DNA of 51,656 bases from Candidatus Peribacteria bacterium. GTDB lineage: Bacteria > Patescibacteriota > Gracilibacteria > Peribacterales > Peribacteraceae. Below the pieces are notes generated by a model, which was given only the letters and a program-made list of their open reading frames with translations, did not search any database and was not told where the DNA came from. This document shows positions 8,665 through 11,130 of this stretch, piece after piece; the stretch's first letter is position 1; every line of letters begins with the position of its first letter. The stretch covers positions 1-51,656 of the forward strand of contig CALRAD010000008.1 in NCBI GenBank assembly GCA_943350395.1, given 5' to 3'. Position numbers and translations under genes: made by a program.

Positions 8665-10992
8665 ATGATGGCATCCGAGAAGGATCATAGTCGCGAAACA
8701 CTCCGTCGTAGAGTCGCGAAGGTTCCGAAAGAACCCGGCGTGTATCGCTGGCTCGATCAGAACGGAAAAATCCTCTATATCGGCAAAGCGAAGAATTTGA
8801 AGAACCGCATGCAGGGGTATGTTCAAGATGGATTGAAGCGTTCAGCGTGGACCGAGATGATGGTGCGTCAGATTGCGAATTTTGACGTGACGGTGGTCCG
8901 AAACGAAGTTGAGGCATTGATCCTCGAGAGTACGCTCATCAAAGAATTCCAACCGAAGTACAACGTGCTTTTGAAAGACGACAAGGGATACGTCTACGTC
9001 CGCATCTCTCTCAAAGATCCGTACCCTCGTGTCGCAATTGTGCGTCAGCTGCAGCGAGATGGTGCTAGGTATTTCGGCCCGTTTCTCGGCGTTCGAGATA
9101 CCGAGCATGCATTGTCTTTGCTCGACGGCATTCTCAAGTACAAAGCTTGCCGGAAATCTCTCGATGCGCTGAATGCCGATCCAACGCGCACGATGGAAGC
9201 GGACGCACCTTGCCTCGAGCATCAGATCGGGAAGTGCAACGGTTTGTGTATCGGAGCAGTTTCTCAGACTGATTATCAACAGCGCATTGATACGATTGTC
9301 AGTTTTTTCCGAGGAAACTTCGCATCGGTGAAGCGCATCGCAAAAGAATCGATGGCGGTCGCAGTTTCAGATCGGAAATTCGAAGCCGCAGCACGTTTTC
9401 GTGATGCGCTCCGGTTCATCGGGGAACTCGAGGACAGGCAAGCCGTCTCCGATCCGATGGGAGAGAATATCGACGTCTTCGGCATCGCGCTCAAGTATGG
9501 AAAAATTCAGGTTGTGCTCCTCAGGCAACGTGACGGCAAGCTGGTCGAGCAAGTCGCTTTCCCGCTCTCGGGAGAGGCGGACAGTGCTTCACTCGCGCTC
9601 GCACAGTTTCTCCCTCAGTACTACGAGCAGACGGACGATTTGCCGGAGATTGTTGTGCTTCGAGATCTTCCCGAAGACGCGTCGTCGTTGCAGAAATGGC
9701 TGAGTGAGAAGTACGGAAAAACAGTATCGATTGTCGTCCCCGAACGCGGCAAGAAGTCGAGACTTCTGGAGATGGCCGAGCGGAATGCGGAAGAGAAAGT
9801 GCAACAACAATTTGCAGTATTCGAGTCAGAGGCGCGCAAGGTCGAAGAGTCGCTGACAGATCTCCAGACGCTTCTCTCCCTTCGCGAAATTCCGCGTCGC
9901 ATCGAGTGTTACGACATCTCGCATTCCAGTGGCTCTGCAACGGTGGGGAGTATGGTCGTATTCGTCAATGGAAAGCCAAAAAGAGAGCATTATCGGAGCT
10001 TTAATATGAAGACAGTTCTCGATGGTCGCATCGACGATTATGCGTCGCTCAAAGAAACACTTCGGAGGAGGCTTAAGTATTTGACACAGGATCTGAAAAC
10101 TCTGGAGAGGGAATGGAAAGAGAAAGGAATAACATTTGGAAAAGTACGGAAAAAAGAACGGGAAACAGTGACTGCCAAAATCCACGCAGAAACATTTTCA
10201 GAGATTGCCATAGATTACCGAGAATGCATCGTTGCCAGACAGAATGACAAGATTGTCGCTTTTGGATATTTGCACCGTCATTCAAGCGGACATGTGGAAT
10301 TGTTCTCCGTTTGGGTTGATGATGCCATGCGAGGCGAGAAGCTCGGCTCTGTCATCAGCCAAATGCTGTTGAAACGCAGTGAGAAAAAGAAGGTCTATCT
10401 CGGCGCGAAACCATCGCTCGAGGAATACTACAGCGAGATTGGTTTCCGGCATGTGATCGAGCCTTCCGAAGAACTTCTTGCCGAAATAAACCGGAATGTT
10501 CCCGATTTTGCAGGCGATATCATCATGATGTACGACGGAAAGCAGCACAAAGTCGATGGATCCTTCACCGATCATCCGAATCTTCTCTTGATCGACGGCG
10601 GCAAAGGACAACTGTCTGCGGTGAAAGAAGTGCTCGACGCACTCAAGCTGACGATCTCGCTTGCGTCACTCGCGAAGCGTGAGGAAGAGATTTTTACTCC
10701 TGCAAGTTTGTCTCCTCTTATCGTTCCGGAAGATTCCTCCGCGCGGTTTCTCTTGCAACGGCTCCGGGACGAAGCGCATCGGTTTGCGAACTTTAAGCGT
10801 GAGACGAGACTCGAACACGCAATGTTTGAATCGAAGCTTGATCAAGTCTCCGGTATCGGACCGAAGACGAGAGACGATCTCATTCGCAGATTTGGATCCG
10901 CAGACGATGCGATCGCGGCGAACGATGAGGAACTGAAGAGCATGCTGACGGAGATGCAGCTTCGATCTTTGCGTTTAAAATTTCCTCGATAA
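8665..10992 (+). CDS. uvrC: UvrC excinuclease subunit with an inserted GNAT-like domain
   Basis: UvrC makes both incisions in nucleotide excision repair with UvrA and UvrB. Domains in order: GIY-YIG nuclease (GVYRW, ILYIGKAKNLKNR, catalytic Glu in NEVEALILE); the Cys cluster (YKACRK, APCLEHQIGKCNGLC); the UvrB-binding UVR motif (about residues 215-245); the RNase-H-like nuclease (IECYDISHSSG at about 410, then LLIDGGKGQLSAVKEVL at about 640 and DEAHRFANFKRETR near 710); and helix-hairpin-helix (VSGIGPKTRDDLIRRFGS). At 775 aa it is about 165 aa longer than E. coli UvrC. The excess falls at about residues 465-632 inside the RNase-H fold. There CIVARQNDKIVAFGYL, ELFSVWVDDAMRGEKLGS and YYSEIGFRHV form a GNAT acetyltransferase pattern. 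Known catalytic residues of UvrC remain. Confidence 0.93.
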   Translation: MMASEKDHSRETLRRRVAKVPKEPGVYRWLDQNGKILYIGKAKNLKNRMQGYVQDGLKRSAWTEMMVRQIANFDVTVVRNEVEALILESTLIKEFQPKYNVLLKDDKGYVYVRISLKDPYPRVAIVRQLQRDGARYFGPFLGVRDTEHALSLLDGILKYKACRKSLDALNADPTRTMEADAPCLEHQIGKCNGLCIGAVSQTDYQQRIDTIVSFFRGNFASVKRIAKESMAVAVSDRKFEAAARFRDALRFIGELEDRQAVSDPMGENIDVFGIALKYGKIQVVLLRQRDGKLVEQVAFPLSGEADSASLALAQFLPQYYEQTDDLPEIVVLRDLPEDASSLQKWLSEKYGKTVSIVVPERGKKSRLLEMAERNAEEKVQQQFAVFESEARKVEESLTDLQTLLSLREIPRRIECYDISHSSGSATVGSMVVFVNGKPKREHYRSFNMKTVLDGRIDDYASLKETLRRRLKYLTQDLKTLEREWKEKGITFGKVRKKERETVTAKIHAETFSEIAIDYRECIVARQNDKIVAFGYLHRHSSGHVELFSVWVDDAMRGEKLGSVISQMLLKRSEKKKVYLGAKPSLEEYYSEIGFRHVIEPSEELLAEINRNVPDFAGDIIMMYDGKQHKVDGSFTDHPNLLLIDGGKGQLSAVKEVLDALKLTISLASLAKREEEIFTPASLSPLIVPEDSSARFLLQRLRDEAHRFANFKRETRLEHAMFESKLDQVSGIGPKTRDDLIRRFGSADDAIAANDEELKSMLTEMQLRSLRLKFPR

Positions 10993-10993
10993 C

Positions 10994-11119
10994 GGTCCTC
11001 ACTCCGCCCCGCCGAGCGGGGCACCTCTCTCCGCTGCGGCGAAGAGAGGAAGATTCATATTGAGAGTAATACAAGTCACCCTTCTTCGCCGCAGCGGAGA
11101 AGGGTTGGGGATGAGGACC
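10994..11119. repeat. Palindromic intergenic element with terminal inverted repeats
   Basis: This 126-bp element starts GGTCCTCA and ends TGAGGACC (perfect 8-bp inverted ends). Internal inverted segments CTCTCCGCTGCGGCGAAGAG and CTTCGCCGCAGCGGAGAAGG pair with each other. It has no coding capacity. It resembles the elements at 17266-17373 and 22959-23089. Confidence 0.75.
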
Positions 11120-11130
11120 GGTAATTTTCC

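Follow-up and report, generated by a model that had tools for sequence, protein, structure and literature searches.

UvrC, a DNA-repair nuclease that is highly conserved in bacteria, is considered here in Peribacteria, which, like their kin, are tiny and uncultured. The solved bacterial enzymes (T. maritima, PDB 2nrr and 2nrt; D. radiodurans, 8b0q; B. stearothermophilus, 3c65) have the same GIY-YIG domain, RNase H D-D-H triad and helix-hairpin-helix (HHH) as the protein described below. In Deinococcus, a lineage-specific signature insert of 16 residues occupies a surface loop of UvrC (PMC5867870). The solved protein closest in sequence to the insert reported here is E. coli ElaA (5z6n, E = 2.4e-5). 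When ElaA was overexpressed in an E. coli strain, growth was inhibited (PMC6199490). Open-access literature on UvrC with GNAT, with domain insertion or with acetylation, and on Peribacteria, contained nothing on the insert. No description of an enzyme domain inside the UvrC nuclease was met with in those papers, in line with the first-pass annotation, which knew of no described UvrC of this kind.

The uvrC gene of the window and its insert

The window is a stretch of 51,656 nucleotides from a Candidatus Peribacteria contig. It carries uvrC as one intact open reading frame (8665–10992, 775 aa); this and all features below lie on the + strand. The gene is single-copy in a genome of 1.25 Mb that also encodes full-length UvrA and UvrB, and its product passed the curated cut-off of the UvrC family TIGR00194 (506.9 bits against 285, E = 8e-152). 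A GIY-YIG nuclease domain (8734–8964, residues 24–100; PF01541, E = 1.5e-9) is followed by the N-terminal part of UvrC_RNaseH (9466–9807, residues 268–381; PF22920, E = 4.5e-28). The C-terminal HHH (10834–10941, residues 724–759) matched PF14520 below cut-off (E = 0.0016), and its helices were present in the predicted structure.

Between these lies the RNase H endonuclease domain, in two parts. Its first half, to the end of helix A, covers 9865–10071 (residues 401–469), and its second half 10576–10824 (residues 638–720), corresponding to the second stretches of 3c65 and 2nrt. The Pfam match to PF08459 was likewise broken into two stretches, of which the first covered residues 401–476; in the structural model, helix A extended to residue ~474. 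The catalytic residues Asp417 (YDISH, 9913–9915), Asp644 (LLLIDGG, 10594–10596) and His705 (DEAHRF, 10777–10779) were invariant in 67/67 aligned UvrCs.

Spacing comparison, Pfam and the model together placed an insert of ~168 aa (10072–10575, residues 470–637) in the loop between helix A and strand 4, starting after helix A (RRLKYL) and ending right before strand 4 (LLLIDGG). The first Asp motif and IDGG are 227–228 aa apart, compared with 65–131 in nearly all measured insert-less UvrCs of the phylum. The first-pass annotation had judged this UvrC to be about 165 residues too long, with the excess between YDISHSSG and LLIDGGKGQ; its interval of 10060–10560 fell within a few codons of the borders found here. 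It had also recognized GNAT hallmarks in the extra sequence. Consistent with this, GNAT families matched the insert alone (Acetyltransf_10, 1.2e-7; Acetyltransf_1, 1.1e-6; Acetyltransf_7, 4.9e-6), and profile cut-offs were passed (PF13673, 32.2 against 23.6 bits; PF00583, 29.4 against 20.7).

The motifs that had been quoted were present. The acetyl-CoA pyrophosphate loop occurs as the variant R-G-E-K-L-G (10330–10347, residues 556–561) within ELFSVWVDDAMRGEKLG, aligned to RGEKVG of ElaA. Relative to the pattern [RQ]xxGx[GA], Arg556 and the last glycine, Gly561, are kept, and the middle glycine is replaced by lysine, as it is in ElaA. Loops of the RGEKLG type were kept in most inserts of the window's family. 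Tyr589 (10429–10431), within YYSEIGF, occupies the position of the GNAT general-acid tyrosine, and by analogy may serve that role; it was invariant (column Y122) in alignment A4, which holds 25 inserts of the family. The insert ends in a conserved tail, K-x-D-x-S-[FL]...P-[DN]-L (10549–10584), which runs into strand 4 and in which D164, S166 and P171 were invariant.

A search of genome contigs matched three Peribacteria loci. The nearest named record was the Candidatus Peribacteria MAG Baikal-deep-G206, with no differences from genome G001 in the stretches compared.

Predicted structure of the insert

Residues 396–775 were modelled with AlphaFold2 from an alignment of 67 sequences. The model was of high confidence (pLDDT 92.4, pTM 0.76), and bore out the GNAT assignment for which structure prediction had been proposed as the check. 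VIA-align matched the T. maritima UvrC nuclease (2nrr) on both sides of the insert (Z 22, 1.2 Å, 137 residues), and matched GNAT enzymes over 124–149 residues of the insert with Z of 12–14.7. The latter matches delimit a GNAT fold core at model residues 87–235, that is residues 482–630 of the protein (10108–10554). Foldseek was in agreement. The model thus predicts a complete GNAT fold within an undisturbed UvrC nuclease fold. In the RNase H fold, the loop between helix A and strand 4 lies at the end of the sheet distal to the catalytic residues.

Genome G018 has an insert without any Pfam match; its model, too, was GNAT-like, with Z up to 9.5 and a lower pLDDT of about 64–91 in the insert, and the alignment behind this model included intact relatives.

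Distribution among relatives

PF08459 was present in 324 of the 353 genomes of the window's class. In the window's own family (f1), the match was split in 65 of the 70 genomes having the domain, and an insert was present in 66 when G575, recognized by sequence and not by a split, is counted. The four exceptions were two UvrCs with a remnant (G006 and G551, spacing 150 and 141) and two with no insert (G009 and G015, spacing 85 and 87).

The first-pass annotation had proposed that the insert be sought in related CPR genomes. In 142 UvrCs from 27 families, the site carried a long insert (spacing at least 160) that was read in frame, a count and not a rate, as the UvrCs measured were mostly picked for a split-looking PF08459. 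An assembly chimera, which had been named as the artefact to exclude, is ruled out by these in-frame occurrences. Three families with in-frame TGA (f10, f14 and f164) mostly had no PF08459 split, and the split-looking UvrCs of f164 had a spacing of 70. Families f13 and f3 were without the insert, and f6 was mixed. When 287 genomes of the phylum were queried with the insert, the in-UvrC form was found outside the class only in f39. These surveys were confined to the window's phylum, and many of the genomes are drafts.

Acetyltransf_10 matched 43/58 and 56/88 inserts in two scanned sets. A profile built from f1 inserts without their flanks matched those of f7, f9, f18, f19, f21, f39 and other families, the better cross-family matches having E-values of ~1e-16 to 1e-35 within the analysed set. 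Most inserts therefore look like one ancestral GNAT type.

The f39 UvrCs L048 (G075) and L050 (G111) carry the GNAT type of the class outside the class, by common ancestry or transfer. Also outside the class, L089, L090 and L091 (G168, G260 and G080) have spacings of 116–131, too short for a GNAT domain.

Other enzymes in the same loop

The same loop holds other enzymes in some relatives. A Ser_hydrolase domain (PF06821, 8.3e-12) was found in L122 of family f8, an Aminoglyc_resit nucleotidyltransferase (PF10706, 1.7e-6) in L123 of f6, and DUF559 (8.7e-35), once, in L233 of f6 (genome G676). GNAT domains of f6 ranged from one matched strongly by Pfam (L119, 2.6e-16) and by the f1 profile (1e-16) to four matched only weakly by that profile (L225, L226, L228 and L230, 4e-7 to 4e-3); a GNAT of a different type in the loop scored up to 1.1e-12. 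In L175 (G600, f169), with a spacing of 377 aa, the loop holds a tandem pair of GNAT-like units, the second of them weak.

In a UvrC core tree of 182 rows built with FastTree, in which deep branches were weak, f6 formed a single clade (support 100), and its insert-less and differently filled members were interleaved. Several independent insertions would be the simplest reading of this pattern.

The DUF559 unit is flanked by 34-nt inverted repeats that are 85% complementary. The motif of these repeats occurred 47 times in the G676 genome and 0 times in the reversed control. The repeats at its borders suggest that the DUF559 insertion, at least, arrived with a repeat element that is translated in frame.

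The motif, CCCTCTCC-loop-AGAGGG-GGGGTGAGG, forms a dense repeat family in the reduced G676 genome (~1 Mb), and has three copies in the window's genome. An inverted-repeat element resembling the repeats around the DUF559 unit lies directly 3′ of the uvrC stop in the window (10990–11123), with arms at 10990–11001/11112–11123 and 11023–11045/11083–11105. The insert of L012 also contains a repeat of the kind that flanks DUF559.

Exchange of the insert between UvrCs

Within f1, insert and core gave conflicting relationships. The UvrC of G002, from the window's genus, was 80% identical to that of the window in the core and 35% in the insert; its insert was closest to that of G022 (56%), with which its core shared 59%. 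In G017 and G026, the inserts were 67% identical and the cores 57–59%. The insert of G575 was 64% identical to that of G007, while its core was 82% identical to that of G029, with which its insert shared 38%. In sliding comparisons, identity dropped sharply at the insert borders and then recovered.

In approximately unbiased (AU) tests on 29 f1 members, the insert data rejected the core topology (p = 9e-66) and the core data rejected the insert topology (p = 3e-8). Three conflicting pairs had 100% bootstrap in the insert tree, against well-supported branches in the core tree. These conflicts indicate that the GNAT module has been exchanged between f1 UvrCs independently of the UvrC body. Rapid local divergence might account for part of this signal, but not for the cases in which inserts are closer than cores. 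The simplest route would be recombination from one uvrC gene to another, with the conserved flanks as anchors.

The f1 insert profile was also searched against 12 f1 genomes. Of these, 8 had one full-length match, located in uvrC; 2 had a remnant and 2 had no match. No full-length stand-alone module was found in these 12 genomes, the only weak candidate being a 145-aa GNAT in G026 (E = 1.2e-4), so the module seems to be tied to UvrC. A stand-alone reservoir was thus not seen among the same genomes.

Erosion, loss and selection

Among 139 GNAT-like inserts, the pyrophosphate loop and the tyrosine were both kept in 81 and both missing in 34; the tyrosine alone was kept in 20 and the loop alone in 4, so that one or both were missing in about 40%. 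In the window's family, 25/32 inserts, including the window's copy, kept both. The two features erode together (Fisher 3e-14, a value inflated by kinship). Five families (f174, f20, f4, f15 and f166) had 0 intact inserts among sampled members.

The two f1 UvrCs without an insert carry short sequences ahead of PDL (KKPDVSL in G015, QKPDRSF in G009) that match the conserved sequence with which GNAT inserts end. These scars suggest that both most likely lost the insert. Possible scars were seen in f13 and f3.

The dN/dS of the insert ranged from 0.05 to 0.44, some pairs having saturated dS, and in most pairs was laxer than that of the core. Between the window and G001 it was 0.12 for the insert and 0.04–0.06 for the core; among close relatives of G018, whose insert lacks a Pfam match, it was 0.15–0.20. 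These ratios indicate that the inserts, eroded ones included, are under purifying selection. Selection on eroded copies would imply a non-catalytic role, at least in those.

Discussion

The reading we prefer, at a probability of roughly 0.58, is that the insert is a tolerated, exchangeable enzyme module in a hotspot loop of UvrC, where it is inherited, swapped, eroded and deleted, and that it is not required for excision. The variety of enzymes in the loop, the conflict between insert and body, the losses in lineages whose nuclease residues are intact and the erosion of active sites all argue for its being dispensable in this sense. In this part of the Patescibacteria, the loop between helix A and strand 4 of the UvrC 5′ endonuclease would be a hotspot for domain insertion. 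A GNAT module resembling ElaA would be an old arrival there, probably predating the divergence of most carrier families, and would since have been passed down by descent, exchanged between UvrCs through recombination at its borders, eroded and deleted. Small enzymes of other kinds would have been inserted independently in some lineages. Judging from RNase H topology, the loop would be distal to the catalytic residues, and a domain with neighbouring ends may well leave cutting undisturbed.

The window's insert is probably a working acetyltransferase, because its loop and tyrosine are intact and selection on it is purifying. It would act on a substrate of its own and not as a required part of excision. 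Against the preferred reading, the keeping of an insert in nearly all of f1 and in most related families suggests some benefit from being inside UvrC, greater than a free passenger would call for; the apparent tie of the module to UvrC and the selection on eroded copies also count against it. More tentatively, the loop might be a port into which unrelated whole enzymes are repeatedly inserted and swapped between species, the advantage possibly coming from having an enzyme, as a changing effector, at sites of damage or from its being made together with UvrC.

The first-pass annotation had suggested that the domain could couple acetyl-CoA level or protein acetylation to excision repair, or be a structural add-on. 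Under the first suggestion, the GNAT would acetylate UvrC, UvrA/UvrB or proteins at lesions, or sense acetyl-CoA, and so tune excision. The joint retention of loop and tyrosine in 81 of the 139 inserts would fit, as would the confinement of the full-length module to UvrC among the 12 family genomes; protein acetyltransferases are among the VIA matches, though they share just the fold. However, relatives have unrelated enzymes in the same loop, the module is exchanged separately from the UvrC body, and the insert changes more rapidly than the core. It is also missing or a remnant in the four f1 exceptions and in f13 and f3; five families had no intact copy among sampled members, and the active site is eroded in about 40% of inserts overall. 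We therefore consider coupling to repair rather unlikely.

A purely structural or docking domain, in which the GNAT fold would be a scaffold or protein-binding surface and catalysis irrelevant, seems quite unlikely. It would suit the inserts that lack the loop, the tyrosine or both, and the GNAT-like model for G018 together with the low dN/dS of that genome's close relatives, although intact relatives contributed to the alignment behind that model. Against it, the two active-site features erode together, and both are present in most family inserts. A structural add-on may be the case where the active site has gone, but the window's copy retains its own. Lastly, the GNAT, nucleotidyltransferase, nuclease and hydrolase classes resemble toxin and defence modules, and rapid exchange within a constant carrier would be expected if the loop were a polymorphic slot for effectors against phages or rivals, with UvrC as mere carrier. 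A single-protein query of viral contigs returned no relative of the insert, and fold matches in BFVD were to generic acetyltransferases; we regard such a slot as highly improbable.

Under the preferred reading of a tolerated and exchangeable module, a cassette swapped between UvrCs, together with repeated unrelated insertions, amounts to a natural experiment on how domains enter working enzymes. The loop is evidently tolerant of whole domains, and whether an inserted module is passenger, scaffold or regulator becomes testable.

Comparison with known systems

The solved bacterial UvrCs align around the insert, and have no counterpart of the ~168-aa GNAT domain between helix A and strand 4. ElaA has the RGEKxG loop variant in common with the insert (Z 12.6, 27% identity), but is a free single-domain protein, whereas the insert is embedded in UvrC. 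The insert scored 31.7 bits against the ElaA family (PRK10314/NF007644), for which the cut-off is 171; ElaA would thus be its nearest relative, and the insert no member of that family. The Deinococcus UvrC insert is likewise lineage-specific and in a surface loop, but at 16 residues it forms no domain. The endonuclease-like domain DUF559 (PF04480) of G676 occupies the same UvrC loop as the window's GNAT, but comes from an unrelated domain family and is found in another family of the class.
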